Source: Paraburkholderia hospita (GTDB lineage Bacteria; Pseudomonadota; Gammaproteobacteria; Burkholderiales; Burkholderiaceae). From it: a stretch of DNA of 64,000 nt. This document shows positions 5,753 to 53,597 of this stretch, one piece after another (positions within the stretch are counted from its first letter, which is position 1; every line of letters begins with the position of its first letter). Made by a program: the position numbers and the translations under genes. The notes below the pieces were generated by a model, which was not told the origin of the DNA, ran no database searches, and worked only from the letters and a program-made list of their open reading frames with translations. Location of the stretch: contig NZ_CP026107.1 of assembly GCF_002902965.1 (NCBI RefSeq), forward strand, positions 1,116,001-1,180,000. The letters are read 5' to 3'.

Positions 5753-5785
5753 CGCGTCGCCTCGCTTAGGTCGTGCGTTCGTGCG

Positions 5786-6712: not shown

Positions 6713-6805
6713 GGAGTCGGCTCTTTCGTAGTCAAAAGCGGGGCTTGCGCGACCCTTGATGGGCGCGCAGGCATTCGATCGGTCGGCGGATTGCGGGCAT
6801 CCGGC

Positions 6806-7855
6806 TCATTGCGCGTCGATGCCGAAGCGCGGCTGCTGGACGGCATAGAAGCGCGCGCCGCAATTGCGGCCGCGCGTCACCGAGCACACGATGCCGGGGA
6901 ATTCGCGCGTCGCCGCGCGGGCTGCCGCGAGCGCGTCGTCGGCATGGCGCGAGCTCTGCACGAACGCGAAGCCCGTCGGGCCCCACGAGCTTTGCCCGAC
7001 GCCCGCTGTCTGGTTCGCCGCGATGGCCTGCAAGGCCGCCGCGACGGCGGGGCTGGAGTAGACGCCGCCTTGCACGGGCGCGAAGTATTCACCGATCGAC
7101 TGCTGAACCTCGCTGACGCCGGCGGCGAACGCGTCGAAGTCGCCTTGCGCCATGCCGGGCAGCACGCGCATCAGCAGTTGATGGCAGACGTGCGCGGCGA
7201 GAGTCTGCGGGAAGGGCGGCAGCGCTGCGAGGCCGCGCTTTTCGTCTTCGCCGTGCAGGCCTTCGCGCGTGGTGTCGTCGATCAGCACGATGCGCCAGTC
7301 GTCGGGAAACGGCTGGCGCGCGATCAGCGGCGGCAAGGCGGCGCGCGTTGCCACGCCCGCTGTCATGCGGCCCGGCCCACCGTCGACGAGCAACCCGCCA
7401 TGATCGAAACCGAGCACGCCGATGCCGGAACGCGCGCCGCGTCCGAGGCGTTGCGCGAGTTCCGCCGTCGTTGCCGCGATGCCGACCAGCCGCGCGTACG
7501 CGGTGCCGACCGCGAGCGCGAGCTGCGTGCCCGAGCCGATGCCGCAATGCGCGCGCGCCGCCTGTTCCACTTCGACGGAAACGGGCGGCCCGCCATAGGC
7601 GTCGTGCAGCAGCGCGAGATAGCGCTCGATGCGCTCGCGTTGCGCGTCGGTGGTAGCGCCTTCGATCTGCGCGTCGTCGGCGGGCCGCGCGGTGACGCGC
7701 GTGCCGCATCCTTCGATGACGACGCCGACGCTGCCGAACGCGCGTCCAAGCGATCCGTTGGGATCGAGAAAGCCCATGTGCAGCCGGCCGGGCGCTTCAA
7801 CGGTGATCGCCGAGATGGCAGGCAGTGTCGACGTGCGTTCGGATGACATCCGCAT
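6806..7855 (-). CDS. mptG: Beta-ribofuranosylaminobenzene 5'-phosphate synthase
   Basis: This enzyme (beta-RFAP synthase) joins a para-hydroxybenzoate or para-aminobenzoate-type acid to phosphoribosyl pyrophosphate with loss of CO2 and is the first committed step of methanopterin synthesis. The 349-residue protein has GHMP-superfamily features: APGRLHMGFLDPNG at residues 21-34 and the phosphate-binding-like loop CGIGSGTQLALAVG at 104-117; QSSWGPTGFAF lies near residue 290. The start at 7855 has AAGGAAG upstream; the next ATG, two codons on, is less well spaced. It is the first gene of the mptG-mtdB-ATP-grasp-mch-RimK-CitG-fae series and follows the pterin dehydratase gene by 192 bases. Confidence 0.93.
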   Translation of the reverse strand: MRMSSERTSTLPAISAITVEAPGRLHMGFLDPNGSLGRAFGSVGVVIEGCGTRVTARPADDAQIEGATTDAQRERIERYLALLHDAYGGPPVSVEVEQAARAHCGIGSGTQLALAVGTAYARLVGIAATTAELAQRLGRGARSGIGVLGFDHGGLLVDGGPGRMTAGVATRAALPPLIARQPFPDDWRIVLIDDTTREGLHGEDEKRGLAALPPFPQTLAAHVCHQLLMRVLPGMAQGDFDAFAAGVSEVQQSIGEYFAPVQGGVYSSPAVAAALQAIAANQTAGVGQSSWGPTGFAFVQSSRHADDALAAARAATREFPGIVCSVTRGRNCGARFYAVQQPRFGIDAQ

Positions 7856-8047
7856 TCGAGAGCTTCCTTGTCGAGTCGTATGGGCGTGGGGCGCCGCAAT
7901 AAAACGGCGCGGAACCGCCGCAGCGGCGCGGTTCCGGAGTCAGGCAAGAGCCGTACCACGCGCGACACGGCGCGCGATCCGTGCGATCCGCGCGACCGCC
8001 GTGCGATCAGCCCGTGATCCAGCCCGCGCGCCTTCGCGCGAACGCCG

Positions 8048-8434
8048 TCAGCTCTTCGGCGCGTCGTACTTGATATAGCGGAAGCGCTGATCGTCGGCGG
8101 GCGTGCCTTCGAGCGGGCCGCCTTCCTTGCCCGGCTGCCACCCGATGACCTCTTCGATCTTCCGCGCGAGCGTGAAGTCCTTGTCGGTGATGCCCTTGGC
8201 GGAATGCGTCTTCAGCTTCACGACGACGAACGCATACGACACCGTCAGATCCGGGTGATGCCACGCTGCTTCGGCAAGATGGCCGACGGTGTTGACCACC
8301 ATCAGCGTGCCTTTCCAGCCTTCCGTGCGGTACTTGCGCCGCAGCCAGCCGTCTTCGAGATACCAGTGCTGCAATGGGCCTTCGAGCTTCTTCTGGATTT
8401 CCTCGTCGGAATACACCTGTTCGCTTTGTGCCAT
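8048..8434 (-). CDS. Pterin-4-alpha-carbinolamine dehydratase
   Basis: Members of the PhhB/DcoH family dehydrate 4a-hydroxy-tetrahydropterins. The 128-residue product shows the family signature: HWYLEDGWLRRKYRTEGWKGTL, then VGHLAEAAWHHPDLTVSYAFVVVKLKTH with the E-A-x-x-H-H-P-D core, then the GITDKDFTLARKIEEVIGW end. The ATG at 8434 is preceded by a good GGAGG; the upstream extension is not conserved. No phenylalanine hydroxylase is nearby. Placement at the head of the H4MPT genes and opposite xoxF suggests the substrate is a methanopterin-type pterin, as proposed for similar genes in other methylotrophs. This is inference. Confidence 0.92.
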   Translation of the reverse strand: MAQSEQVYSDEEIQKKLEGPLQHWYLEDGWLRRKYRTEGWKGTLMVVNTVGHLAEAAWHHPDLTVSYAFVVVKLKTHSAKGITDKDFTLARKIEEVIGWQPGKEGGPLEGTPADDQRFRYIKYDAPKS

Positions 8435-8813
8435 GACGGACCTCCGCTGGTGTCGGGATGGTTGCTCATATGAAGAGCTTAGCGCCCCTGTGCGCTTTGC
8501 AAAGCCCGATTGCCGCCTTGCCTGCGTGCGGGCCTCGGGCGCCGCCTGTTGGTTTGCGTATCTGACACAGAATGTCCCGCCGCAGGCGGCGAAGCGGAAC
8601 ATGTTGACGCCGCGAAGGCGTGCAGCGGCGTGTCAATGCGTGTTGTAGCGACCGGCATGGAATATGCGAACCGCCGTCATACGCATGGGCTGGGCAATGG
8701 ATCCGGCGCAGCAAAGACGTTACCTGCATCCAGCGGCGCGGCTGGGAGCGACCCGGTAGCGTGTCATCGGTAACTGGACGGTTTCAACCAGTATCACCCA
8801 ATCTGGAGGAGAC
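8435..8813. promoter_or_regulatory. Divergent promoter region between the H4MPT and xoxF operons
   Basis: No coding region is convincing in these 379 bases. They must hold the promoters for the pterin dehydratase/H4MPT genes (minus) and for xoxF (plus). At 8663-8681 there is a LysR-type box: TATG, 11 bases, CATA, which fits the T-N11-A rule of LysR-family operators. The candidate regulator is the LysR gene at 13141. A GC-rich dyad lies around 8576-8600. The xoxF ribosome site CTGGAGGAGAC ends just before 8814. Confidence 0.6.
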
Positions 8814-10631
8814 ATGAACGTACGCACCCTGGTTCTCGGACTGGCGGTGTTGGTTGCGACGGCGCTGAACTCGTTCCTGGCTTATGCCGATCCGCAGCTG
8901 GACTCGCTAATCAAGAACCCATCTAACTGGGCGGCGCAGGCAGGTGATTATTCCAATCACCGGTACAGCCCGCTCAAGCAGATCAACGAAAGTAATGTCG
9001 GCAAACTGCAGGTCGCCTGGACGATGTCGACGGGCGTGCTGCGCGGTCACGAAGGTTCGCCTCTCGTCATCGGCGACACGATGTATATCCACTCGCCGTT
9101 CCCCAATAAGGTCATCGCAATCAACCTGAAGGACCAGACCTTCATCTGGCAATACGAGCCGAAGCAGGACGCGTCGGTGATCTCCGTGATGTGCTGCGAT
9201 ACCGTGAACCGCGGGCTCGCATACGGCGACGGCAAGATCTTCCTGCAACAGGCCGACACCAAGCTCGTCGCGCTCAACGCGAAGACGGGCGAAGTGGTCT
9301 GGACCGCGCAGAACGGCGATCCGAAAGCGGGTGAAACCAACACCAACGCGCCGCACGTATTCGGCGACAAGGTGCTGACGGGCATCTCCGGCGGCGAGTT
9401 CGGCGTGCGCGGCCGTCTGATCGCGTACGACATGAAGACGGGCAAGGAAGCGTGGAAGGCCTACAGCACCGGGCCCGACAACGAGATGCTGCTCGATCCG
9501 CAACAGACGATGACGTGGGTCGACGGCAAGATGCAACCCGTCGGCGCGGATTCGTCGATCAAGAGCTGGAAGGGCGATCAGTGGAAGCTCGGCGGCGGCA
9601 CCACGTGGGGCTGGTATGCGTGGGATCCAAAGCTGAACCTTGTCTACTACGGCACGGGCAATCCGGGCACGTGGAACCCGACGCAGCGTCCCGGCGACAA
9701 CAAGTGGTCGATGTCGATTTTCGCGCGCGACCTGAATACGGGCAAGGCGAAGTGGGTTTATCAGATGACGCCGCACGACGAATGGGACTATGACGGCGTC
9801 AACGAAATGATCCTCTCCGACATTTCGATCAACGGCAAGAAGACGCCCGCCATCGTCCACTTCGACCGCAACGGCTTCGGCTATACGCTGAACCGCGAGA
9901 CGGGCGAGCTGCTGGTCGCGCAGAAGTACGACCCGGCCGTGAACTGGGCGGATAGCGTCGATCTGAAGAGCGGCCTGCCGATTCGCAACGCCTCGTATTC
10001 GACGCAGAAAGCCGGTCCCGATCACAACGTGAAGGGCATCTGCCCGGCGGCGTTGGGTTCGAAGGACCAGCAACCGGCCGCGTTCGATCCTTCGTCGAAC
10101 CTGTTCCTCGTGCCGACCAACCACGTCTGTATGGACTACGAGCCGTTCGATGTCGACTACGTGTCCGGCCAGCCGTATGTGGGCGCGACGCTGTCGATGT
10201 TTCCCGGTCCGAACGAGAAGGGCGCGATGGGTAACTTCATCGCGTGGGATGCGGCGAAGGGCAAGATCGTCTGGTCGAAGCCGGAGCGTTTCTCGGTGTG
10301 GTCGGGCGCGCTGGCGACGGCAGGCGGCATCGCCTTCTACGGCACGCTGGAAGGCTACATCAAGGCAGTACGGATCAAGGACGGCAAGGAACTGTGGAAG
10401 TTCAAGACGCCGTCGGGGATCATCGGCAACGTGTTCACGTATGAGTATCAGGGCAAGCAGTTCGTCGGCGTGTATTCGGGCATCGGCGGCTGGGCGGGCA
10501 TCGGCATGGCAGCCGGCCTGCAGAAGTCGACGGAAGGCCTGGGCGCCGTGGGCGGCTACCGCGAGCTGGCGAAGTACACCGCGCTCGGCGGCACGCTGTT
10601 CATCTTCGCCATTCCCGGCGGGAACGGCTGA
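8814..10631 (+). CDS. xoxF: Lanthanide-dependent PQQ methanol dehydrogenase
   Basis: XoxF oxidises methanol (often to formaldehyde or formate) in the periplasm using pyrroloquinoline quinone and a rare-earth ion, passing electrons to cytochrome XoxG. The 605-residue protein has a signal peptide (cleavage about residue 25), the vicinal cysteines C127-C128 that stack on PQQ, tryptophan-docking propeller repeats, and the catalytic segment [11 protein letters not shown] at 321-331. The catalytic aspartate D325 is followed two residues later by D327. That extra aspartate marks lanthanide enzymes, whereas calcium-type MxaF has alanine there. A strong GGAGGAG precedes the ATG. No MxaI small subunit gene is seen. 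It heads the xoxF-xoxG-xoxJ operon. Confidence 0.96.
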
Positions 10632-10823
10632 TACGGTCTGAAGCGTTGCAGCAGTCTCGCAGTCGTAGTTTCGCAGCAGCAGTGACGTAGCCGGAGACGC
10701 CCGTACGCGGTCTTCGGCTCCGAACAAGTGGCGCCCGCGGCGCGTTGCAGATGCGATGTGCCGCGCGGCTGCCCGGTTATGCCTGAAAAGCAGCTTCAAT
10801 CGAAATGATAGGGAGACGAACGC

Positions 10824-11264
10824 ATGAAAGGCCGTGTTGTGCTGTCGCTTGCAGGTGCGTTACTGGCGTTGAGCGCTTTACCTGTTGTCATGACCAATAG
10901 CTGGGGACAGTCGTCGGACGCGCCCCCCCAGGCCCAGAAGGTTGCTTACAAAGTGGTCGACGGCAACAAGGTCGACAGTGATACGCTGCTGGGATGGAAA
11001 ACCTGGCGCGCGCTCGCCTGCGAACGCTGCCACGGCGCGAAGCAGGAGGGCCTCGTCGGTCCGTCGCTGATCGATGCGTTCAAGACGCTCGACAAGAACG
11101 AGTTTCATCGTACGGTGTTCGGCGGACGTGTCGACAAGGGCATGCCCGATTTCAGTTCGAGTCAGATGATGCAGAAGAACTGGGAGAACCTCTTCGCCTA
11201 CCTGAAAGGCCGCTCCGACGGCTCGATCAAACCGGGCGATCTGCAGGCGATCGATGCGAAGTGA
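10824..11264 (+). CDS. xoxG: Cytochrome c of the methanol dehydrogenase system
   Basis: The 146-residue protein has an N-terminal export signal and a single haem site, C66-E-R-C-H70, with M107 (GRVDKGMPDF) as the likely distal ligand. Size and position directly after xoxF identify it as XoxG (cytochrome cL-like), the electron acceptor of XoxF, which feeds terminal oxidases. A GGGAGA ribosome site precedes the ATG. The 192-base gap from xoxF is longer than in a tight operon and could hold a processing site or secondary promoter. Confidence 0.92.
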   Translation: MKGRVVLSLAGALLALSALPVVMTNSWGQSSDAPPQAQKVAYKVVDGNKVDSDTLLGWKTWRALACERCHGAKQEGLVGPSLIDAFKTLDKNEFHRTVFGGRVDKGMPDFSSSQMMQKNWENLFAYLKGRSDGSIKPGDLQAIDAK

Positions 11265-11296
11265 CGATAAAGTCGTGCGATTGCCCGTGACGTGCC

Positions 11297-11313
11297 GCGA
11301 TGCAATGCATCGC
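11297..11313. promoter_or_regulatory. Perfect 17-bp dyad between xoxG and xoxJ
   Basis: GCGATGCAATGCATCGC is an 8-1-8 perfect palindrome 33 bases after the xoxG stop and 42 before the xoxJ start. No T-run follows, so it is not an ordinary terminator. It may be an operator or an RNA hairpin that sets the xoxG to xoxJ ratio. Function unproven. Confidence 0.35.
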
Positions 11314-11354
11314 ATCGCGCCGCCCATCGCATGACGCCAACCCGGGAGACCTCG

Positions 11355-12269
11355 ATGACCGATCGCAGAAGTTCCGCCGTCCATGCCGTCTGTGCGATGC
11401 TGGCGCTGTGCTGGGCCTGCGTCGGAGCGCCATCCGCCTACGCGCAAGGCGCACCCGCGCCGAATCTGCCGAACAACGACGGCGCGGACAACGTTCTGCG
11501 CGTGTGCGCCGATCCGAACAACATGCCATTGTCGAACGACAAGGGCGAGGGCTTCGAGAACAAGATCGCGGCCGCAATGGCCAAAGATTTCGGCTACAAG
11601 CTCGAATACACGTACTTCCCTCAGCGCATGGGCTTCGTGCGTCACACGTTGCGCGACAAGGCGGACAACAGCGATCAGTTCAAATGCGATTTGATCATCG
11701 GCGTGCCGCATGGTTACGACATGACGTCGACCACGCGGCCGTGGCTGCATTCCACATACGCGATGGTGTTCATCAAGCGCCCCGAGTTCGCGAACATCAA
11801 TACGCCTACTGATCTGTTGAAGTTGCCGCCCGATCAACTGAAAAAGTTGAAGCTCGGCATTTTCTCGCAGACGCCCGCTGTCGACTGGCTGCTGAATAAC
11901 AACCTGATCGACCAGGCTGTGTCGTATCGCGCGCAAAGCGGCGACCCGAATGCGTTTCCAGGCGAGATGATCCAGCACGATCTGGCGCAGGGCAACGTCG
12001 ACGTCGTGTTCGTCTGGGGACCGATTGCGGGCTACTTCGCGAAGCAGGCGAGCGATCGCGTGAAGCTCGTGCCGTTCCCGCCGCAGGCGGGCATCCGTTT
12101 CGACTATGAAATCTCGATGGGCGTGCGTTACGGCGAGAAGGCGTGGCACGACAAGATCGACCAGTGGATCGCCACCCATCAGGACACGATCGACAAGATT
12201 CTCGTCAGCTATGAAGTGCCGCTCTTGCCGTTGGCGAGCGCGCCGGTTGCGTCGGATGCGCCGAAATGA
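11355..12269 (+). CDS. xoxJ: XoxJ: periplasmic solute-binding-like protein of the methanol dehydrogenase operon
   Basis: MxaJ/XoxJ proteins look like amino-acid-type periplasmic binding proteins but serve methanol dehydrogenase maturation or activation; no ABC transporter is encoded alongside. The 304-residue product has a signal peptide ending ...SAYAQG, then the family start NVLRVCADPNNMPLSNDKGEGFENKIA, and the later CDLIIGVPHGYDM, PAVDWLLNN and GNVDVVFVWGPIAGYFA segments. The start at 11355 is chosen because GGGAGA lies six bases upstream; two earlier in-frame ATGs lack a ribosome site. The TGA stop overlaps the next gene as ATGA. Confidence 0.9.
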   Translation: MTDRRSSAVHAVCAMLALCWACVGAPSAYAQGAPAPNLPNNDGADNVLRVCADPNNMPLSNDKGEGFENKIAAAMAKDFGYKLEYTYFPQRMGFVRHTLRDKADNSDQFKCDLIIGVPHGYDMTSTTRPWLHSTYAMVFIKRPEFANINTPTDLLKLPPDQLKKLKLGIFSQTPAVDWLLNNNLIDQAVSYRAQSGDPNAFPGEMIQHDLAQGNVDVVFVWGPIAGYFAKQASDRVKLVPFPPQAGIRFDYEISMGVRYGEKAWHDKIDQWIATHQDTIDKILVSYEVPLLPLASAPVASDAPK

Positions 12270-15332: not shown

Positions 15333-17411
15333 TTAGTGCGTACCGCTTGCACGCTGCCCGGAAGGCAGAATCTCAAACGGCGTCTCCCGCACAGTGGGCC
15401 GATCAGCGCGTCGCGCACGAACCACCGCGAGCACGCCATAAAACACCACACTAACGACCACAAAAATAAACAACCCAGCCAGCGCAGCATCGACATAGTC
15501 ATTGAACATGATCCGATGCATCTGCTCGATCGACTTGGCCGGCGCAACGATCTTGCCAGCATCGGCAGATGCACCGAGCTTTGCAGCATGCGCCAGAAAC
15601 CCAACCTTCGGATTCGCGTCGAAAATCTTCTGCCAACCCGCCGTCATCGTACAGACCAGCAACCACACGGTCGGCACAAGCGTAACCCACGCAAAACGCT
15701 CGCGCTTCATCTTGAACAACACCACCGTGCCGAGCACCAGCGCAATCCCCGCCAGCATCTGGTTCGAGATACCGAACAGCGGCCACAGCGTATTGATGCC
15801 GCCAAGCGGATCGATCACGCCCTGATACAGGAAGTAACCCCACGCGGCAACGCACAGCGCAGTAGCGATCAGGTTCGCAGGCAGCGATTCCGTGCGCTTG
15901 AGAGCAGGGTGGAACGTGCCCAGCAGGTCCTGCAGCATGAAGCGTCCAGCACGCGTGCCTGCATCTACAGCCGTCAGGATGAAGAGCGCTTCGAAAAGAA
16001 TGGCGAAGTGATACCAGAACGCCATCATCGCCTGTCCACCAATCACCTGATGGAGAATCTGCGCCATGCCCACGGCAAGTGTCGGCGCACCGCCTGCACG
16101 CGCGACGATCGTCGTTTCGCCGACCGCCTGCGCTGTTTGCGTCAGCATGTCCGGCGTCAGCATGAAGCCCCATTGCGATACGGTTTGCGCGACCGCGTCG
16201 GGCGTCGTGCCGAGCACGGCAGCAGGCGCGTTCATCGCGAAGTAGATGCCCGGCTCGATCACAGCAGCCGCCACCAGCGCCATGATCGCAACGAACGATT
16301 CCATCAGCATCGCGCCATAACCGATGAAGCGCGCATTCTTTTCATTGTCGAGCAGCTTCGGCGTCGTGCCCGACGAGATCAGCGCGTGGAAACCCGATAC
16401 CGCGCCGCAAGCGATCGTGATGAACAGGAACGGGAACAGGTTGCCCGACCACACAGGCCCCGTGCCGTCGACGAACTTCGTCAGCGCGGGCATCTTGAGT
16501 TCCGGCGCGACGACGAGAATGCCGATCGCAAGACCGAGAATCGTGCCGATCTTCAGGAACGTCGACAGATAGTCGCGCGGCGCAAGCAGCAGCCACACAG
16601 GCAGCACCGATGCCACAAAGCCGTAGCCGATCAGAATCCACGTGAGCTGCGTGCCGCTGAACGTGAACCATGCGGCGAGCGCGGCATTATCGTGCACGCT
16701 CTGACCGAACACGATCGATGCCATCAGCAGCACGAAGCCGATCACCGACACTTCACCGATGCGGCCCGGCCGGATGAAGCGCGTGTAGACGCCCATGAAC
16801 AGCGCAATGGGGATGGTCGCGGCGACCGTGAACGTGCCCCACGGCGAATTGGTCAGCGCCTTCACGACGATCAGCGCGAGCACGGCAAGGATGATCACCA
16901 TGATGAGGAACGCGCCGAACAGCGCGATCACGCCGGGCACGGTGCCAAGCTCCATCTTGACGAGATCGCCGAGCGAACGGCCGTCGCGGCGCGTCGAGAT
17001 GAACAGCACGATGAAGTCCTGCACGGCGCCTGCAAACACGACGCCCGCGAGAATCCACAGCATGCCGGGCACGTAGCCCATTTGCGCGGCGAGCACCGGG
17101 CCGACCAGCGGGCCTGCGCCCGCGATCGCCGCGAAGTGATGGCCGAACAGCACGTACTTGTTGGTCGGCACGTAGTCGAGACCGTCGTTGTGCCGCACGG
17201 CGGGCGTCACGCGCTGGCCGTCGAGCTGCAAGACATGATTCGCGATGAAGCGGCTGTAGAAGCGATAAGCGATCAGATAGACGCAGACGGCGGCGATCAC
17301 GACCCAGAGGGCGCTGACCTTCTCGCCATGCGCAAGCGCGATGGTGCCGAACGCGAATGCGCCGAGAAGCGCGACCGCTGTCCAGACCAGAATACTGGAT
17401 GCTCTATTCAT
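15333..17411 (-). CDS. cstA: CstA/BtsT-family carbon-starvation transporter
   Basis: The 692-residue inner-membrane protein has some 16-18 hydrophobic segments and family motifs: GLDYVPTNKYVLFGHHFAAIAGAGPLVGPVLA near residues 75-107, VVFAGAVQDF, ISSGTTPKLL and GGINTLWPLFGISNQMLAG. In E. coli, members take up pyruvate (BtsT, CstA) and peptides under starvation. AGGAG precedes the ATG. The leader carries two 46-bp hairpin repeats beginning 12 bases upstream of the start codon, just outside the ribosome site. The divergent two-component pair at 17714-19767 is a plausible regulator, by analogy with BtsSR-BtsT. Confidence 0.95.
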   Translation of the reverse strand: MNRASSILVWTAVALLGAFAFGTIALAHGEKVSALWVVIAAVCVYLIAYRFYSRFIANHVLQLDGQRVTPAVRHNDGLDYVPTNKYVLFGHHFAAIAGAGPLVGPVLAAQMGYVPGMLWILAGVVFAGAVQDFIVLFISTRRDGRSLGDLVKMELGTVPGVIALFGAFLIMVIILAVLALIVVKALTNSPWGTFTVAATIPIALFMGVYTRFIRPGRIGEVSVIGFVLLMASIVFGQSVHDNAALAAWFTFSGTQLTWILIGYGFVASVLPVWLLLAPRDYLSTFLKIGTILGLAIGILVVAPELKMPALTKFVDGTGPVWSGNLFPFLFITIACGAVSGFHALISSGTTPKLLDNEKNARFIGYGAMLMESFVAIMALVAAAVIEPGIYFAMNAPAAVLGTTPDAVAQTVSQWGFMLTPDMLTQTAQAVGETTIVARAGGAPTLAVGMAQILHQVIGGQAMMAFWYHFAILFEALFILTAVDAGTRAGRFMLQDLLGTFHPALKRTESLPANLIATALCVAAWGYFLYQGVIDPLGGINTLWPLFGISNQMLAGIALVLGTVVLFKMKRERFAWVTLVPTVWLLVCTMTAGWQKIFDANPKVGFLAHAAKLGASADAGKIVAPAKSIEQMHRIMFNDYVDAALAGLFIFVVVSVVFYGVLAVVRARRADRPTVRETPFEILPSGQRASGTH

Positions 17412-17422
17412 TTGTGTCTCCT

Positions 17423-17519
17423 GTCGACCAGAGTTGGCGCTTTAGCGCCTTACTCTGGTCCCATGCACGGCGAGTCGACCAGAGTTGGTGCCTTAGCGCC
17501 TTACTCTGGTCCCATGCAC
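17423..17519 (-). repeat. Two tandem 46-bp hairpin repeats in the cstA leader
   Basis: Copies at 17423-17468 and 17474-17519 (51-bp period) differ at two or three bases only. Each can fold through GACCAGAGT and ACTCTGGTC, with an inner GGCGC/GCGCC-type pairing in the first copy, into a stable hairpin. They sit just upstream of the cstA ribosome site, so they would be in the mRNA leader or the promoter. The almost identical pair suggests recent duplication or a functional tandem hairpin. Confidence 0.75.
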
Positions 17520-17660
17520 AGCTAAGTTGTTTTCATGCCCGTCAGCGCCTGCTGGCGAGACCTCTGCGACGCGCCAGGGGAGCGCCGCGCATGGTCGAAG
17601 ATGTGCCATGCTTTGGGCGTGTAGTATTCGTCTTCGTCGCGTGCGCCACAAGCGCACAAC

Positions 17661-17689
17661 TACGTAAGCGCGCTACGTAGAATTACGTA
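17661..17689 (+). promoter_or_regulatory. Triple TACGTA operator candidate ahead of the two-component genes
   Basis: TACGTA occurs at 17661, 17674 and 17684, the last two inside (C)TACGTAG contexts, 24 to 53 bases before the kinase ATG. Palindromic hexamers in phase with 13- and 10-base steps look like a binding site for a LuxR/NarL-type regulator, for example autoregulation by the response regulator at 19126. Not proven. Confidence 0.5.
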
Positions 17690-17713
17690 GGCAGTCCGAC
17701 CGGCTTTCCACAG

Positions 17714-19129
17714 ATGAAACTCAAGGCAAAGATCTTTCTGCTCGCCCTCGTGCCGTTTCTGGCCGCGATCGCGGGCATTGCGCTCGGCGTGCGCCATCAG
17801 GCCACCGCGCTCGCGAGCGCGCAGCACGACACGACGCAATCGGCCTACATGGCGAGCAAGGAAATCGAACTGCGCCACTACGTCGATCTCGCGACCAGCG
17901 CGATCAAGCCGCTCTACGACGAAGCGGGCGTCAACGCACGCGACGACGCGCTCCTGCGCAACCGCGCGCTCGCGATGCTCGAGAAAATGGACTTTGGCCA
18001 GGACGGCTACTTCTTCGTCTACGACATGCATGGCCGCTCGCTGATGCATCCGCGCGAGCCGGATCTCGTCGGGCGTGATCTGTGGACCTTGCGTGATCCT
18101 GCGGGCTCGCTGACCATCCAGCAGCTCATCAAGGCGGCCGCCGAGGGCGGCGGCTATGTGCGCTATGTGTGGCATCGTCCGTCGACGGGCAAGCTCGCGC
18201 CGAAGCTCGGCTATGTCGTGCCGCTGCCGCGCTGGGGCTGGATGCTCGGCACGGGGATCTATCTCGACGATGTCGACACGACGCTGGCGCGCATCGACCA
18301 GCGCGCATCCTCCGACATCGAGCACACCATGCTATGGATCGGCGCGATCGCGCTCGCGGGGCTGTGCGTGATCGCCGTGTGCGCGTTGGTGCTGAACGTC
18401 AGCGAATACCGCAGCGCGGACGCGAAGCTCAAGCGTCTCGCGCAGCAGGTGGTCGAATCGCAGGAAAACGAACGCGCGCGGCTGTCGCGCGAACTGCATG
18501 ACGGCATCAGTCAGATGCTCGTCTCCGTCAAGCTGCTGCTCGAGTCGGCGCTCGCGCGCTTCGAGCTGACCGAGCCGCGCGTGCAGCCAGCGGAAGCGGC
18601 ACTGTCCACCGGCATCGGGCGGCTCGGCGATGCGCTGCGTGAAGTGCGCCGCATCTCGCATGCACTGCGTCCTTCGATGCTCGACGATCTCGGGCTGGCA
18701 GCAGCGCTCGAACAACTGACGCGCGAGCTGAGCACGCAAAGCCATCTGTCGATCGGGTTTACGCAGATCGTGCACGATCATGCCGCGCAACTGCCCGACA
18801 CGGTGAAGACAGCGCTGTTCCGCATCGCGCAGGAAGCATTGACGAACATCTTCCGGCACGCGCACGCGACGCAGGCTGCCGTCGCGCTGGAAGTCACGGC
18901 GCGCCGCGTCACGCTGTCGATCAGCGACGACGGCCGCGGCTTCGATGTCGAACGGGTGCAGGCCGACGCGAGCGCGGGCGTTGGCTTGCGCAACATGCGC
19001 GAGCGTCTGGAGGCGCTGAACGGCGAGTTGCAGCTCGTGTCGCGGCCGGGCCATACACTCGTCACGGCGACTGCGCCGCTTTTCGCGCGGGAAGCGCTTC
19101 ACATCGAAATGCAGGCAGACCCTTCATGA
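17714..19129 (+). CDS. Membrane histidine kinase with periplasmic Cache sensor
   Basis: The 471-residue protein has one membrane segment at residues 7-27, a periplasmic single-Cache region (about 35-195, with FGQDGYFFVYDMHGRSLMHP and GYVVPLPRWGWMLGTGIYLDD), a second membrane segment at 205-228, then a HisKA_3 domain with the phosphorylated histidine H262 in SRELHDGISQ and a HATPase domain ending with DGRGFD and GVGLRNMRERLEAL. Cache domains of this type bind small organic acids. It overlaps its response regulator by ATGA and diverges from cstA, so it may sense pyruvate or a similar acid and control cstA; that is inference. Confidence 0.92.
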   Translation: MKLKAKIFLLALVPFLAAIAGIALGVRHQATALASAQHDTTQSAYMASKEIELRHYVDLATSAIKPLYDEAGVNARDDALLRNRALAMLEKMDFGQDGYFFVYDMHGRSLMHPREPDLVGRDLWTLRDPAGSLTIQQLIKAAAEGGGYVRYVWHRPSTGKLAPKLGYVVPLPRWGWMLGTGIYLDDVDTTLARIDQRASSDIEHTMLWIGAIALAGLCVIAVCALVLNVSEYRSADAKLKRLAQQVVESQENERARLSRELHDGISQMLVSVKLLLESALARFELTEPRVQPAEAALSTGIGRLGDALREVRRISHALRPSMLDDLGLAAALEQLTRELSTQSHLSIGFTQIVHDHAAQLPDTVKTALFRIAQEALTNIFRHAHATQAAVALEVTARRVTLSISDDGRGFDVERVQADASAGVGLRNMRERLEALNGELQLVSRPGHTLVTATAPLFAREALHIEMQADPS

Positions 19130-46846: not shown

Positions 46847-47614
46847 ATGGTTCAAGCCCCTCAGCGCACGGCGGTCAGCGGTCCGACGCTCGTCCGTCTG
46901 CTCGCGCGCCTGACTACCGCCGACGTTCCCGCCTCCAGCCAGTCGCTGTCGGACCAGTTGAGCCAATGGCTCGGCTGGACAGACGCGATTGCGTTGTCGA
47001 CGGCGCTCAACAGTGCGCCGCCCGCCGTCGCGTCCGGCGCGCGGGGCGCGGGCAGCGTCGAGCACGAGTGCGCGCGGGTGCGCGCGTCGCTGGCGGACGC
47101 GATTGCCGGCGACAGCATGCTCGCGCCGCGCCGGCGACGCAGCGCCGCGCATGCGCAGAATGCGCAGCAGCCGGAAGCGGAAGCCAGTTACGCGGACTTT
47201 CGCCAGTGCTATCTGGCGTTGCAGCAGTCGATGGAAACGCGCATCGGCAGTCTGCGCGGGCGGCTGCGCAACATGGTGGCGGCACAGACGTCGGAGATGA
47301 CGCGGCTCGCGGTGGTCGACGCGATCATGGAGCGGTCGCTCGGCGCGCGCGAGCGCAGCCTGTTCGGCGCGGTGCCGGGTCTGCTTAGCGGTCATTTCGA
47401 GCGCCTACGCCAAGCCGCACAGGCCGCACAGGATGAGCAGGACGCTCTGGCCGCTGCTGCCACCACGGCCACTGGGACCGGGAGTCAAGCCGCACCCCGG
47501 CCCGGCGCGTGGCTAGACGTGTTCCGCAAGGACATGCAGAGCGTGTTGCTTGCCGAACTCGATATTCGTTTTCAACCGGTCGAAGGGCTGCTGGCTGCCC
47601 TTCGCATCAGCTAA
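46847..47614 (+). CDS. DUF3348-family helical protein, first gene of the motor-like operon
   Basis: I recognise the DUF3348 type of Burkholderiaceae and Xanthomonadaceae; no function is known. The 255-residue protein has no signal or membrane segment. It is almost all helix with a likely coiled region (YADFRQCYLALQQSMETRIGSLRGRLRNMVAAQ, then ERSLFGAVPGLLSGHFERLRQAAQAAQ) and a C-terminal WLDVFRKDMQSVLLAELDIRFQPVEGLLAAL. It ends 10 bases before the MotA-like gene, which implies co-translation. It is a candidate cytoplasmic partner or assembly factor for the membrane motor. The ATG at 46847 is preferred; 46832 is possible. Confidence 0.82.
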   Translation: MVQAPQRTAVSGPTLVRLLARLTTADVPASSQSLSDQLSQWLGWTDAIALSTALNSAPPAVASGARGAGSVEHECARVRASLADAIAGDSMLAPRRRRSAAHAQNAQQPEAEASYADFRQCYLALQQSMETRIGSLRGRLRNMVAAQTSEMTRLAVVDAIMERSLGARERSLFGAVPGLLSGHFERLRQAAQAAQDEQDALAAAATTATGTGSQAAPRPGAWLDVFRKDMQSVLLAELDIRFQPVEGLLAALRIS

Positions 47615-47624
47615 CTGGGACAAC

Positions 47625-50063
47625 ATGTCCAGATATCGCATTGATTTTGTCGTTGTTTTTCTCGTAGGTCTGGTTGTAGCCGGTTGGGTCGGCGCCGGCT
47701 ATGTCGTGTCGAATCCGCTGGCGCTCGCTGTCACGCTGCTGGTCGCCGCCTGCTATGTGGCGGGCGCGCTGGAACTGCAGCGCTATCAGGAGGCCACCGC
47801 GACGCTCACGCGCGCGCTCGCGGAGCTGTCCGAGGCGCCGTCACGGCTCGGCGTGTGGCTCGAACGTCTGCATCCCGGTTTGCGCAACCCGGTGCGCCTG
47901 CGCATCGAAGGCGAGCGCGTCGCGTTGCCGGGCCCGGCGCTCACGCCGTACCTGGTCGGGCTGCTGGTGCTGCTTGGCATGCTGGGCACGCTGCTCGGCA
48001 TGGTGACGACGCTGCGGGGCACGGGCGCCGCGCTCGAAAGCGCGACGGATCTGCAGGCGATCCGCGCGTCGCTGGCCGCGCCCGTCAAGGGCTTGGGCTT
48101 TGCGTTCGGCACTTCGATTGCGGGCGTGGCGACCTCGGCGATGCTCGGCTTGCTGTCGGCGTTGTGCCGCCGCGAGCGCGCTCTCGCCGCGCAGCTGCTC
48201 GACACGAAGATCGCGACCACGTTGCGCGCCTTCTCGCAGAGCCAGAAGCGCGACGAGACCTTCAAACTGCTGCAGCGCCAGGCGGACACGATGCCCGTGC
48301 TGGTCGACCGTCTTCAGACGATGATGACGGCCATCGAGCAGCAGAGCCTGTCGCTCAACGAGCGGCTGATCTCGAACCAGCACGCATTTCATGGACGCAC
48401 GGAAGCGGCGTATGCGCGGCTGGTGTCGACGGTTGCGCAGTCGTTGAAGGACAGCGCGGCGGAAAGCGCCCGCGCGGCGGGCGCGGCGTTGCAGCCGGCG
48501 ATGGAAGCCACGATGACCGGCCATGCGCGCGAGATGGCGTCGCTGCGCGAGACCGTCGAGCATGCGGTGCAACGTCAGCTGGACGGTTTGACGACGGGCT
48601 TCGACGCGTCCACTGCGAACGTTGCGAAGCTATGGACCGAAGCGCTCGCAGGACACCGGAGCGCAAGCGAGTCGCTCGCACAGGACTTGCGCGTGTCGCT
48701 GGAAGGCTTCAGCCAGACTTTCGAGCAACGCTCGACGGCACTGCTGGACGGCGTGTCAGCACGCCTCGACACGACGGCGGGCCAGGTGTCGAGCGCGGCG
48801 GAAAGCGCGCGCGCGGCGGGCGCGGCGTTGCAGCCGGCGATGGAAGCTACGATGGCCGCTCACGCGCTCGAAATGGCCGCACTGCGCGGTACGGTCGAGC
48901 AGGCGGTGCAGCGTCAACTGGACGGCCTGTCGAGTGGCTTCGAGTCGACTACGGCGAACGTGGCGAATCTATGGAACGAGGCGCTCGCAGGGCACCGGAG
49001 CGCGAGCGAGTCGCTCGCAAAGGATCTGCGCGCATCGCTGGAAGGCTTCACGCAGACTTTCGAGCAGCGCTCGACGGCTCTGCTGGATGGCGTGTCGACG
49101 CGCCTCGATGCAACGGCGGGGCAGGTTTCTCAAGCCTGGACGCACGCACTGACCCAGCAGGAGCGCACCGGCGAAAAGCTCGCGGAGCACAACCGCGACG
49201 CGCTCACGACGGCGGCATCCGCTTTCGAGCAACATTCGGCCGCGCTGTTGCGCGCCGTCGATGAGTCGCATGCCGGTTTGCAGGCCGAACTGGCGTCGCG
49301 CGACCAGCAGCGTCTGGACGCATGGAGCGCCTCGCTCGAAACGGTCGCGGCCACGTTGAGCCAGAAGTGGGACGAAACGGGCGCGCGCACCGCGAGCCGC
49401 CAGCAGGAAATCTGCGACACGCTCGCGCAGACCGCGCGTGATATCTCGGCGCAGACGCAAGCCCACGCGAGCGGCACGATCGCGGAAATTTCGCGGCTTG
49501 TCGAGGCCGCGTCGGAAGCGCCGCGCGCGGCGGCGGAAGTCGTCGCCGAACTGCGCCAGAAGCTCTCCGACAGCATGGTCCGCGACACCGCGATGCTCGA
49601 CGAGCGCAGCCGTCTGCTCGCCACGCTCGAAACGCTGCTCGACGCCGTGAATCACGCATCGACCGAACAGCGCACGGCCGTCGATGCGCTCGTCTCGACA
49701 TCGGCGGGACTGCTCGAGCGCGTCGGCACGCAGTTCAACGACAAGGTCGAAGCCGAAACCCGCAAGCTCGGCGACGTCGCCGCGCAGGTGGCGGGCAGCG
49801 CCGTCGAAGTGGCGAGCCTCGGCGAAGCGTTCGGCATGGGTGTGCGGCTGTTCGGCGAATCGAACGACAAGCTGATGGCTCACCTGCACCGTATCGAGGC
49901 GGCGCTCGACAAGTCGCTGCTGCGTAGCGACGAGCAGCTTGCGTACTACGTCGCGCAGGCGCGGGAAGTGATCGACCTCAGCATGCTGTCGCAGAAGCAG
50001 ATCGTCGAAGACCTGCAACAGCTGGCGGGTCAGCGCGCATCTGCTGGAGCCGACGCGGCATGA
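47625..50063 (+). CDS. DUF802-family MotA/ExbB-like channel protein with long coiled-coil tail
   Basis: The 812-residue protein has two N-terminal membrane helices (about 8-28 and 30-48) and two more at 106-130 and 157-180 with the MotA/TolQ/ExbB pattern: TPYLVGLLVLLGMLGTLLGM, then LAAPVKGLGFAFGTSIAGVATSAMLGLL. The remaining roughly 620 residues are an Ala/Glu/Gln-rich cytoplasmic coiled coil containing two tandem 113-residue repeats (residues about 277-502). The same build, a proton-channel subunit with a long cytoplasmic tail, is known for ZorA of the Zorya phage-defence system. The stop overlaps the MotB-like gene by ATGA. Function unknown. Confidence 0.88.
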   Translation: MSRYRIDFVVVFLVGLVVAGWVGAGYVVSNPLALAVTLLVAACYVAGALELQRYQEATATLTRALAELSEAPSRLGVWLERLHPGLRNPVRLRIEGERVALPGPALTPYLVGLLVLLGMLGTLLGMVTTLRGTGAALESATDLQAIRASLAAPVKGLGFAFGTSIAGVATSAMLGLLSALCRRERALAAQLLDTKIATTLRAFSQSQKRDETFKLLQRQADTMPVLVDRLQTMMTAIEQQSLSLNERLISNQHAFHGRTEAAYARLVSTVAQSLKDSAAESARAAGAALQPAMEATMTGHAREMASLRETVEHAVQRQLDGLTTGFDASTANVAKLWTEALAGHRSASESLAQDLRVSLEGFSQTFEQRSTALLDGVSARLDTTAGQVSSAAESARAAGAALQPAMEATMAAHALEMAALRGTVEQAVQRQLDGLSSGFESTTANVANLWNEALAGHRSASESLAKDLRASLEGFTQTFEQRSTALLDGVSTRLDATAGQVSQAWTHALTQQERTGEKLAEHNRDALTTAASAFEQHSAALLRAVDESHAGLQAELASRDQQRLDAWSASLETVAATLSQKWDETGARTASRQQEICDTLAQTARDISAQTQAHASGTIAEISRLVEAASEAPRAAAEVVAELRQKLSDSMVRDTAMLDERSRLLATLETLLDAVNHASTEQRTAVDALVSTSAGLLERVGTQFNDKVEAETRKLGDVAAQVAGSAVEVASLGEAFGMGVRLFGESNDKLMAHLHRIEAALDKSLLRSDEQLAYYVAQAREVIDLSMLSQKQIVEDLQQLAGQRASAGADAA
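48453..49130 (+). repeat. Two tandem 339-bp copies inside the DUF802 gene
   Basis: Copies at 48453-48791 and 48792-49130 encode 113-residue units that begin SAAESARAAGAALQPAMEAT and end LDGVSxRLDxTAGQVS. They differ at a few tens of bases. The in-frame duplication lengthens the coiled tail by 113 residues, presumably in register with the heptads. Confidence 0.85.
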
Positions 50064-50707
50064 ACGACGATATCGACGGCGGCGTCGAGCCGACGACGCC
50101 CATCTGGGCCGCCTTCAGCGATCTGATGTCGGTGCTGCTGGGCGCGTTCGTGCTGATTCTGGTCGGTGTGATCGGCGTGCAGCTGGAACTGTCGGCGCGG
50201 CTCGACGATGCCGTCAAGCAGCGGCAGATGGAAGCGCAGCGCCGCAAGACGCTGGAGCAGGCGCTGGCAGGACCGCTTGCGGCCGGGCGCGTGACGCTGG
50301 TCAACGGGCGCATCGGCATCAGCGGCAACGTGCTGTTCGCGCTGAACTCCGACCAGTTGCAGCCGCAGGGGCGCGATCTGCTGAAGAGCCTGGCCGGGCC
50401 GTTGTCCGCGTATCTCCGCTCGCACGACGAAATCCTGATGGTCAGCGGCTTTGCCGACGATCAGCAGGTGCGGTCAAGCAACCGGCGCTTCGCGGACAAC
50501 TGGGAGCTGTCGGCGCAGCGCGCGCTGACGGTGACGCGCTCGTTCATCGATGCGGGCATTCCCGCGTCGTCGGTGTTCGCGGCGGCGTTCGGCTCCGAGC
50601 AGCCGGTTAGCTCGAACGCGGATAGCGAAGGGCGGGCGAAGAACCGTCGCGTGGAAATTGCGGCGGTGCCGAGGCCCGCGTCATCGGGCGGCGGAAACCG
50701 TGAGTAG
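50060..50707 (+). CDS. MotB/OmpA-like partner of the DUF802 channel
   Basis: The 215-residue protein has one N-terminal membrane helix starting with WAAFSDLMSVLLGAFVLILVGVIG. D21 at its start corresponds in place to the proton-binding aspartate of MotB, TolR and ExbD. The periplasmic C-terminal domain is OmpA-type (ILMVSGFADDQQV, NWELSAQRALTVTRSFIDAGI, SEGRAKNRRVEI), a peptidoglycan anchor. This is the stator-rotor build of MotB and ZorB. Coupled by ATGA to the DUF802 gene, it overlaps the DUF2894 gene by 8 bases. Confidence 0.92.
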   Translation: MNDDIDGGVEPTTPIWAAFSDLMSVLLGAFVLILVGVIGVQLELSARLDDAVKQRQMEAQRRKTLEQALAGPLAAGRVTLVNGRIGISGNVLFALNSDQLQPQGRDLLKSLAGPLSAYLRSHDEILMVSGFADDQQVRSSNRRFADNWELSAQRALTVTRSFIDAGIPASSVFAAAFGSEQPVSSNADSEGRAKNRRVEIAAVPRPASSGGGNRE

Positions 50708-51347
50708 CGACGCAACCGCGCGCGCCAGCGACGCACAGACGACGCTCGACGCTTGGCGCGAGCAGGGCGACGACCGGCTCGATCCGCTGCGCTTTCATTT
50801 CATCGACGCGCTGGCGCGGCGGGCAGCCGCTCACGACGGCGAAGCGCGCCGCATTCTCGATGCGCGTCTATCTTCCTTGCTCGAAGCCTATGCTGGCGAT
50901 CTCGCCAGCCGTGCGTCGACGGCACAAGCGCCTGAGAGCGCCGCTCCGCCGTGCAAGGCAACGCGCGGACCGCTCGCGGAACTGGTCGATTACATCGCGA
51001 GCCACCCGCAGGCAGGCGACGAGCGCGTCGCGCTCAACGCCGCCGTTCGCTCCGAATTGAAGGCGCTCGATTACTTCCGCGAAACCTGGTCCAAGGTCAG
51101 CGCCGAGAAACAGGTGCGTGTATCGCTCGAACAGGTGCCGGGCAATGCCGGGCCGCTCAATTCGAGCAGCCTCGTGCATCGGTCGCTGTCGCTGATGCGC
51201 GAGTTGTCGCCGGGGTATCTGCAGCAGTTCCTGGCCTACGTCGATGCGCTGTCGTGGATGGAGCAGATCACGGGCGGCGCGTTGCCCGTCAAGGATGCGC
51301 CACGCCCCGCGAGCGCGAAGAAGGGCGCGCGCGGCAAATCGCGCTAG
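50700..51347 (+). CDS. DUF2894-family protein, last gene of the motor-like operon
   Basis: The 215-residue cytosolic protein starts at a GTG overlapping the previous gene's end (GGCGGA upstream). It has an N-terminal helix pair (TLDAWREQGDDRLDPLRFHFIDALARRAAAHDGEARRILDARL), a low-complexity linker and a C-terminal domain (LAELVDYIASHP, ELKALDYFRETWSKVSAEKQVRVSLEQVP, LSPGYLQQFLAYVDALSWMEQITGG). The tail is basic (KKGARGKSR). I recognise the DUF2894 type, without known function. It is a candidate effector or tail-binding protein of the motor. Confidence 0.85.
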   Translation: MSSDATARASDAQTTLDAWREQGDDRLDPLRFHFIDALARRAAAHDGEARRILDARLSSLLEAYAGDLASRASTAQAPESAAPPCKATRGPLAELVDYIASHPQAGDERVALNAAVRSELKALDYFRETWSKVSAEKQVRVSLEQVPGNAGPLNSSSLVHRSLSLMRELSPGYLQQFLAYVDALSWMEQITGGALPVKDAPRPASAKKGARGKSR

Positions 51348-51377: not shown

Positions 51378-53423
51378 TCAGGCCGTATCGGACTGCTTCT
51401 TGTACTGCGACGCGAGCTTGTCCTGCTGGTTCGGCGGAACAGGATCGTAATGGCTCAATTCGATGCTGTAGTTGCCGTGCCCGCCCGCGATCGCGTTCAG
51501 GCGCGACTGATAGTCGGCCAGTTCCGATAGCGGCACTTTCCCCGCCACGACCACAGCACGGCCGGCCAGATTGCGCGTGCCCTGTACCTGCGCGCGACGC
51601 GACGACAGATCGCCGATGATGTCGCCCATCGTCGTGTCGGGCGTCATCACCTCGATGTTCACGATCGGTTCGAGCAGGATCGGCTGCGCCTTGAGTATTG
51701 CGTCTATGAACGCCTTGCGGCCCGCCGTGACGAACGCGACTTCCTTCGAGTCGACAGGATGGCTCTTGCCGTCGAACACGGTGATACGCACGTCCTGCAT
51801 CGGAAAGCCCGCAAGCGGGCCGTTCTCGATCACCTGCAAAATGCCCTTTTCGACGGCTGGCATGAACTGGCCCGGAATCGCGCCGCCCTTCACGGCATCG
51901 ACGAATTCGTAGCCCGCGCCGCGCGGCAACGGCTCGACGCGCAGCATCACTTCGCCGAACTGACCTGCGCCGCCCGTCTGCTTCTTGTGGCGATGATGCC
52001 CTTCGGCCTTGCCGCCGATGGTCTCGCGGTACGCGATCTTCGGCGGCCGCGTGATGACGCCGAGCTTGTATTGATCGGCGAGCCGCTCCAGCATGTGCCG
52101 CAGATGCAATTCGCCCAGTCCGCGCACGACGGTCTCGTTGGTCCCGACGGGATGTTCGATTTTCAGGCAAGGGTCTTCCGCCGCGAGCTTTTGCAGGATT
52201 TCCCACAGACGCTGCTCGTTGCCGCGCCGCTCCGGCTCGATGGCGAGGCCGTAGATCGGTGTCGGGAACGCGAGCGGCGCGAGATGGATGTTGCCGTCTT
52301 CAGGCGCGTCGTGCAGCACGGCGTCGAATGAAATCTCGTCGACCTTCGCCGTCGCGCAGATATCGCCGGGTCCCGCCTGCGCGACCTCCTCGTGGTCCTT
52401 GCCCTGCAACAGCATCAGATGCGCGACGCGAAACGGCTGGCGCGCGTCGCCGATATAGAGCTGACCGTCGCGCCGCACCGTGCCCTGATGGATGCGGAAC
52501 ACGGCCATCTTGCCGATGTACGGGTCGATCACGATCTTGAACACATGTGCGAGCACATGTTTGTTGGGATCGGGCTCGGCCTGCACCGTCTCGCGCCGGC
52601 CATCGACATCGCGATAGAAGAGGGGCGGATTGCCTTCGAGCGGATTGGGCAATAGTTTCACGAACACATCGAGCAGTTCGCGGATGCCCGCGCCCGTCGC
52701 CGACGACGTGAAGCACACAGGCACCAGATGCCCTTCGCGCAGCGCGCGCTCGAACGGTTCGTGCAGTTGTTCCGGCTGGACCGCTTCGCCCTGTTCGAGA
52801 TACAGCTCCATCAGCTTTGCATCAAGCTCGATTACCTGGTCGACGAGCGCGTTATGCGCGGATTCGACCGTCAGCAGATCGGATTCGCCGGACGGATTGA
52901 AGAAGCAGTCGACTACGGCGGTTGCGCCTTGCGCGGGCAGGTTGATAGGCAGACAGTCCTTGCCGAAAGTCTCCTGAATCTCTTCGAGCAGACCGGGCAG
53001 ATTGACCTTGTCGCCATCGATGCCGTTCACGACGATGATCCGGCACAGCTTGCGCGCCTCGGCCCACGCCATCATGCGGCGCGTGGTCATTTCGATGCCA
53101 GTGCGCGCGTTGATGACGATCGCGGCTGTTTCGACGGCAGGCAAGGCGCTGATGGAAAGGCCGGAGAAGTCGGGGTAGCCGGGCGTGTCGGCGAGGTAGA
53201 TGCGAGTGTTCTGGTAATGCAGGTGGGCGATCGCGGAGGAGAGCGAGTGGTGGTATTTGCGCTCCAGCGGATCGAAGTCGCAGACGGTCGAGCCTCGGTC
53301 GACGCTGCCTGCCGCATGGATCGCGCCGCCTTCTTTCAGCAGCGCCTCGATCAACGAGGTCTTGCCGCAACCGGCGTGGCCGACCAGCGCGATGGTACGG
53401 ATGGCTTCGGGTGGGTAATCCAT
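51378..53423 (-). CDS. Elongation factor G paralogue with atypical G4 motif
   Basis: The 681-residue GTPase has the EF-G domain order. G1 is VGHAGCGKTS (about 14-23) and G3 is DTPGYPDF (79-86), but the usual NKxD base-recognition motif is VVNGIDGDK (N133-G-I-D136). The C-terminal domains IV and V are present (GHHRHKKQTGGAGQFGEVMLRVEP, TPDTTMGDIIGDLSSRRAQVQG). It is not the main fusA, which sits with ribosomal genes; it resembles the EF-G2/FusA-like group found in many bacteria, whose role is unclear. The ATG at 53423 has GAGGAC upstream. Lack of the lysine in NKxD may alter nucleotide affinity. Confidence 0.88.
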   Translation of the reverse strand: MDYPPEAIRTIALVGHAGCGKTSLIEALLKEGGAIHAAGSVDRGSTVCDFDPLERKYHHSLSSAIAHLHYQNTRIYLADTPGYPDFSGLSISALPAVETAAIVINARTGIEMTTRRMMAWAEARKLCRIIVVNGIDGDKVNLPGLLEEIQETFGKDCLPINLPAQGATAVVDCFFNPSGESDLLTVESAHNALVDQVIELDAKLMELYLEQGEAVQPEQLHEPFERALREGHLVPVCFTSSATGAGIRELLDVFVKLLPNPLEGNPPLFYRDVDGRRETVQAEPDPNKHVLAHVFKIVIDPYIGKMAVFRIHQGTVRRDGQLYIGDARQPFRVAHLMLLQGKDHEEVAQAGPGDICATAKVDEISFDAVLHDAPEDGNIHLAPLAFPTPIYGLAIEPERRGNEQRLWEILQKLAAEDPCLKIEHPVGTNETVVRGLGELHLRHMLERLADQYKLGVITRPPKIAYRETIGGKAEGHHRHKKQTGGAGQFGEVMLRVEPLPRGAGYEFVDAVKGGAIPGQFMPAVEKGILQVIENGPLAGFPMQDVRITVFDGKSHPVDSKEVAFVTAGRKAFIDAILKAQPILLEPIVNIEVMTPDTTMGDIIGDLSSRRAQVQGTRNLAGRAVVVAGKVPLSELADYQSRLNAIAGGHGNYSIELSHYDPVPPNQQDKLASQYKKQSDTA

Positions 53424-53597
53424 GGCCGTCCTCATTCTGCGACAGTTATTGGGCCATTATTGGTGAAAATGGCGCCGCCTGCCACAAGACACGCGCGAAT
53501 TTGCGAATTCGGGTATGTTGCGGCGCGGTAGAAAACGGTCGCGCCTGTTTCTGATAAGGTGCTCCGATCTTCTAGACATTCATTGGATCCGCAACAC

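Follow-up and report, generated by a model that had tools for sequence, protein, structure and literature searches.

A Zorya type III operon with a tandem duplication in the ZorA tail of Paraburkholderia hospita

The four genes and their assignment

Four adjoining genes on the plus strand occupy positions 46847-51347 of the window (the whole stretch of Paraburkholderia hospita DNA analysed here, 64,000 nucleotides long, on a 2.44-Mb contig of an 11.5-Mb genome). Read from the open reading frames and the sequence, they encode in order a DUF3348 protein, a DUF802 motor protein with three DUF802 stretches (Pfam, E 8.9e-50), a MotB/OmpA-type protein and a DUF2894 protein (Table 1), and are spaced by +10, -4 (ATGA) and -8 bases, the same frames and gaps as in the original prediction of a four-gene operon. 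The Pfam, PADLOC and NCBIfam runs took the DUF3348 start 18 bases and the DUF2894 start 3 bases further upstream. The nearest named DUF3348 and DUF2894 proteins are those of Paraburkholderia such as P. terrae.

Table 1. Features of the operon, with positions in the window
Feature	Positions	Strand	Basis
DUF3348 protein, 255 aa	46847..47614	+	Pfam E 4.4e-99; PADLOC ZorG3 E 3.4e-109; all-helical model, mean pLDDT 84
ZorA3 (DUF802), 812 aa, a long helical tail in the cytoplasm following four hydrophobic segments	47625..50063	+	PADLOC ZorA3 E 0; profile match to type I ZorA 8VVN
ZorA T122 codon, within GTLLGM; candidate residue of the ion ring	47988..47990	+	T in 99/99 relatives; aligned with GTFMG of 8VVN ZorA
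ZorA T163-S164 codons, within FGTSIAG; candidate residues of the ion ring	48111..48116	+	99/99 relatives; aligned with FLTSVWG of 8VVN ZorA
339-bp tandem duplication in the ZorA tail	48453..49126	+	Tandem Repeats Finder; self-comparison
ZorB3, 215 aa, with a single membrane helix and an OmpA-like, putatively peptidoglycan-binding domain	50060..50707	+	PADLOC ZorB3 E 7.5e-117; OmpA E 1.9e-16
Codon of ZorB D21, presumed ion-carrying aspartate	50120..50122	+	D in 110/110 relatives
DUF2894 protein, 215 aa, GTG start	50700..51347	+	Pfam E 6.5e-65; PADLOC ZorF3 E 1.2e-85; low-confidence all-helical model, mean pLDDT 65

Zorya type III was named in 2021 from 6,401 gene pairs (printed as zorBC) with DUF3348 and DUF2894 genes at their sides (Payne et al. 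2021, PMC8565338); the available text of a 2025 structural paper (PMC11890865) gives the composition of the type and the genera Burkholderia, Xanthomonas, Stenotrophomonas, Ralstonia and Paraburkholderia, without experiment. In PADLOC-DB all four window proteins match the models of this type (ZorG3, ZorA3, ZorB3 and ZorF3; E 1.2e-85 or better), and ZorA3, ZorB3, DUF3348 and DUF2894 lie in one contiguous locus, with the membrane aspartate of ZorB, the Thr/Ser ring of ZorA (from invariant residues and the 8VVN alignment) and the long cytoplasmic tail of ZorA all present. The type I/II models also match ZorA and ZorB, more weakly (ZorA1 and ZorA2 within ZorA residues 109-335, best E 3.8e-10). The names ZorF and ZorG are swapped between sources: in the 2021 and 2025 papers DUF3348 is ZorF and DUF2894 is ZorG, and in the PADLOC-DB models the reverse.

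Judged by these model matches, the operon represents Zorya type III, an anti-phage system described before, and no new motor family. The absence of ZorC, ZorD and ZorE, for which PADLOC gave no match at E 1e-5 among the 10 proteins neighbouring zorAB, belongs to the definition of that type. The original prediction had correctly recognized a ZorAB-like motor (the type I/II ZorA and ZorB models match it, and a profile finds the type I ZorA 8VVN) in which DUF3348 and DUF2894 replace ZorC, ZorD and ZorE, which is the published composition of type III; its claim of a "separate rotary-motor family" and a "distinct system" is refuted by the type III matches of all four proteins together with the 2021 description. 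With the operon filed correctly, a motor that belongs to a known defence system is not mistaken for a new one.

A hydropathy scan places the hydrophobic segments of ZorA at about residues 6-24, 31-49, 110-128 and 159-181. With a profile of residues 1-240, the sole significant solved chain was the type I ZorA 8VVN (E 2.5e-4, profile positions 109-184), and the Pfam family MotA_ExbB (PF01618) had six matches elsewhere in the genome, none in the window and none on ZorA; the MotA/ExbB similarity claimed from the sequence is thus upheld by the ZorA1/ZorA2 models and the 8VVN profile, but is weak by sequence and escapes PF01618. Residues G121-T122 and G162-T163-S164 of ZorA are invariant (99/99 sequences), as are W16, F19 and D21 of ZorB (110/110), the last being the aspartate at the start of the membrane helix that had been singled out beforehand. 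The domain of ZorB predicted to be of peptidoglycan-binding type scores as OmpA-like (Table 1), with G130 and D133 invariant and R154 and N195-R196-R197 found in 110 of 110 sequences. For types I/II, the text of PMC11890865 describes ZorA5B2 (5:2) complexes solved by cryo-EM, and reports that defence depends on the aspartate of ZorB, on binding to peptidoglycan and on the tail of ZorA; a specific histidine is reported as needed for peptidoglycan binding by ZorB. The position of this histidine, placed by motif and by eye, is F131 in 109 of 110 type III ZorB sequences.

All four genes stand in one order and on one strand in 30 of the 31 genomes for which the operon region was available (the window's and 30 fetched for a DUF3348 match); the exception, G288, has a weak DUF3348 match and gave no ZorB match. 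Among 80 named loci chosen by ZorB, 77 match all four genes, and in the remaining three (L062, L096 and L108) the available stretch stops short of DUF3348. Counted among the 77 are L037 and L038, where the DUF3348 frame is short, and L061, L102 and L116, where the ZorA frame is possibly broken. These counts bear out the expectation that the four genes travel together. Most of the 77 loci share the +10 and -4 gaps; the gap before DUF2894 varies more, with -8 as its most frequent value, in a comparison in which gene starts were partly mispicked.

Length and repeats of the ZorA tail

After the last hydrophobic segment of ZorA, the hydropathy scan leaves a tail of ~630 residues, close to the ~620 residues of unusually long cytoplasmic tail put forward earlier. 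It contains two 113-residue units, beginning at residues 277 and 390 and identical at 95 of 113 positions. Among 96 ZorA3 proteins with trusted starts, length ranges from 555 to 1155 aa, and 63 carry tandem repeats, with twelve dominant unit lengths (22, 29, 33, 51, 58, 62, 69, 80, 87, 98, 113 and 131 residues); the median length is 701 for repeat-free and 871 for repeat-bearing proteins. Because many of the 96 are close relatives, the case for a repeated origin rests on the twelve unit lengths and not on the count of 63. The 42 of 105 ZorA tails that lack strong repeats have a hydrophobic period of 3.675, near the hendecad value of 11/3. At three loci (L061, L102 and L116) the ZorA frame stops 762 to 1092 bases before ZorB, and these are possibly broken, repeat-rich or misassembled copies.

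The variable tail length of ZorA3 differs from the well-conserved component size within each family studied in the 2025 paper, as given in its available text (PMC11890865), and a narrow literature search found, among the matches listed and in the text available for them, nothing on tail-length variation or tandem repeats in ZorA. We tentatively suggest that type III Zorya might be a near-core Burkholderiaceae motor with tail length as its evolving parameter: in lineage after lineage ZorA would have grown through tandem duplication of helical units whose insertion tends to preserve the coiled-coil register, evolution would in this way adjust how far a rotating or bending rod reaches, or its gearing, and the system may serve both envelope and defence. 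The natural tail-length series of ZorA3 offers a ready test of tail function.

Distribution and genomic context

The ZorA3, DUF3348 and DUF2894 models each match 98 of 150 genomes from the GTDB family, a set that includes the genome of the window. A full DUF3348 match was found in 98 of the 109 family genomes of at least 3 Mb, the other 11 of which are not all complete, and in none of the 41 smaller ones (a hand count from listed sizes). The ZorB1 model at E 1e-30 matches 9 of the 150, which makes only a rough contrast with the type III counts, because there are further models for types I/II and this one was run at a stricter threshold. Outside the family DUF3348 is rare: it was found in 7 of 150 genomes drawn from the order (two weak matches, two from the family itself, the window genome included) and in 6 of 229 drawn from the class (again with the window genome). 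In another family of the order, G288 (locus L144) and G158 have a weak DUF3348-like stretch within a frame of 453-460 aa. Plasmid records gave 26 matches in 72,556, the shortest of them 588,872 bases long, and phage records none in 50,697. The near-core distribution within the family is unlike that of most defence systems.

The genes neighbouring the operon in the window are metabolic (alcohol dehydrogenase, EF-G-like, DsbA-like). None of the 10 neighbouring proteins tested matched PADLOC at E 1e-5, and there is therefore no evident defence island, a context that the original prediction had proposed to look for. The G+C content is 67-69% in the operon and 58-65% in its flanks. When 100 loci were compared, the genes directly beside the window's operon were common only to a few close relatives (L037 and L039 to L044), and no fifth gene family was common to all, the most frequent non-operon family occurring in 18 of 101 stretches (simple gene calls). 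Seven genera have at least two members in the trees; the operon tree recovers three of them as monophyletic, the rpoB tree five and the gyrB tree six. Because operon neighbours differ from clade to clade and the rpoB and gyrB trees conflict with that of the operon, some exchange of the operon between lineages is likely. Compared with 22 other family genomes, the window's operon core shows an almost constant identity (64-72% in 18 of them, lowest 53%), while rpoB spans 85-98%; this pattern suggests exchange but may alternatively reflect fast divergence to a plateau.

Several other genes of the window were recorded. Convergent with the operon lies an EF-G-like GTPase of 685 aa with EF-G domains (51378-53435), kept in L037 and L039 to L044. 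What looks like a methanol/formaldehyde oxidation cluster spans 3466-12269, a region of C1 metabolism with a methenyltetrahydromethanopterin cyclohydrolase (3466-4656), a member of the beta-RFAP synthase family (6806-7855), a PQQ methanol/ethanol-type dehydrogenase (8814-10631) and a MoxJ-like protein (11292-12269). At 15333-19129 a CstA-like pyruvate/proton symporter (15333-17411) is accompanied by a histidine kinase (17714-19129; best model MctS), both below the model cut-offs.

Proposed working and relation to known systems

The predicted structure of DUF3348 (pTM 0.79) has eight helices, and that of DUF2894 (pTM 0.37) is all helical with confident N-terminal helices. Comparison of the predicted models gave no significant fold match for either protein, no solved relatives were found, and neither hit a significant enzyme family in Pfam or NCBIfam; nothing in these searches points to an enzyme. 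Our guess is that both are tail-bound transducers rather than enzymes; in the available text of Payne et al. 2021 (PMC8565338) they are proposed as ZorAB regulators in place of ZorC, ZorD and ZorE.

We consider it probable that the window holds a Zorya type III anti-phage operon working as an ion-driven ZorAB motor with tail-borne DUF3348 and DUF2894, a reading that starts from the observed family identity, gene order, conserved ion residues and tail repeats. Five ZorA3 and two ZorB3 subunits would probably form a 5:2 ion-driven motor in the inner membrane; a phage disturbing the envelope would cause ZorB3 to grip the peptidoglycan; ions would then pass D21 and the Thr/Ser ring of ZorA, so that ZorA and its helical tail turn; and the tail would carry or switch the small helical DUF3348 and DUF2894, standing in for ZorC, ZorD and ZorE. 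Stoichiometry, gating, rotation and sensing are here modelled on types I/II. The possible defence role named by the original prediction agrees with the type III anti-phage activity found in print, that of one operon, from Stenotrophomonas nitritireducens, which reduced plaque formation by at least one of five phages when carried by E. coli BL21-AI (in the text available of Payne et al. 2021, PMC8565338); against the defence motor stand the single operon behind this activity, F131 at the histidine position, the 10 neighbours without PADLOC match and the near-core distribution in the family.

Two other accounts seem to us unlikely, to a similar degree. The output could be membrane depolarisation, with ZorAB opening as an ion channel that kills the cell and DUF3348 and DUF2894 merely gating it. 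The lack of an enzyme fold in either protein would agree with this, as would the regulator proposal and the proton-channel idea of abortive infection cited with it (Payne et al. 2021, PMC8565338, available text), but later work on types I/II links defence to a motor with its tail and to modules separate from it, among them the nickase ZorE (PMC11890865, available text).

The operon could equally encode a housekeeping envelope motor of Burkholderiaceae, for cell-wall sensing, division or stress, with phage protection as a side effect or second role. One full DUF3348 match in 98 of 109 large family genomes and in 0 of 41 smaller ones, one ZorB1 model matching just 9 of 150 at its strict threshold, 10 neighbours free of defence matches and the absence of matches in phage records would all suit such a motor, as would the high conservation of type III Zorya in Ralstonia solanacearum (90% or more of genomes; 2026, PMC13064858, available text). 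It is opposed by the phage protection measured for the Stenotrophomonas relative, by operon neighbours that vary from clade to clade, by an operon tree that keeps 3 of 7 genera monophyletic as against 5 (rpoB) and 6 (gyrB), and by the 11 large genomes lacking the operon marker, three of them in the window's own genus. Infection data also speak against it: when Bcep176 infected B. cenocepacia K56-2, a change was seen in the first one or two genes of both Zorya I and Zorya III, Zorya III not being listed, in the available text, among the systems its authors considered active (PMC12584637). The first proposal, a motor family of its own with no relation to Zorya, is highly improbable: the missing MotA_ExbB match and the long, variable ZorA tail would fit, but four genes match type III models, the type I/II ZorA and ZorB models match as well, and the ZorA profile matches 8VVN.

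Taken as a defence motor, the window system can be set beside three known ones. With flagellar MotAB it shares the MotB-type aspartate and the OmpA-like domain of ZorB; unlike it, ZorA3 has no Pfam MotA_ExbB match and none of the 10 neighbouring genes tested is flagellar. Zorya types I/II (PMC11890865, available text; 8VVN and 8VVI) are alike in the ZorA channel segment, the Thr/Ser ring, the membrane aspartate of ZorB, the OmpA-like domain and the long tail, whereas the window operon has DUF3348 and DUF2894, and no ZorC, ZorD or ZorE was found among its 10 tested neighbours. From Zorya type III itself (PADLOC; Payne et al. 2021, PMC8565338, available text) it does not differ in composition, all four components being present, adjacent and matched by the same models, and the window copy is set apart by the 113-residue tandem duplication in its ZorA tail.
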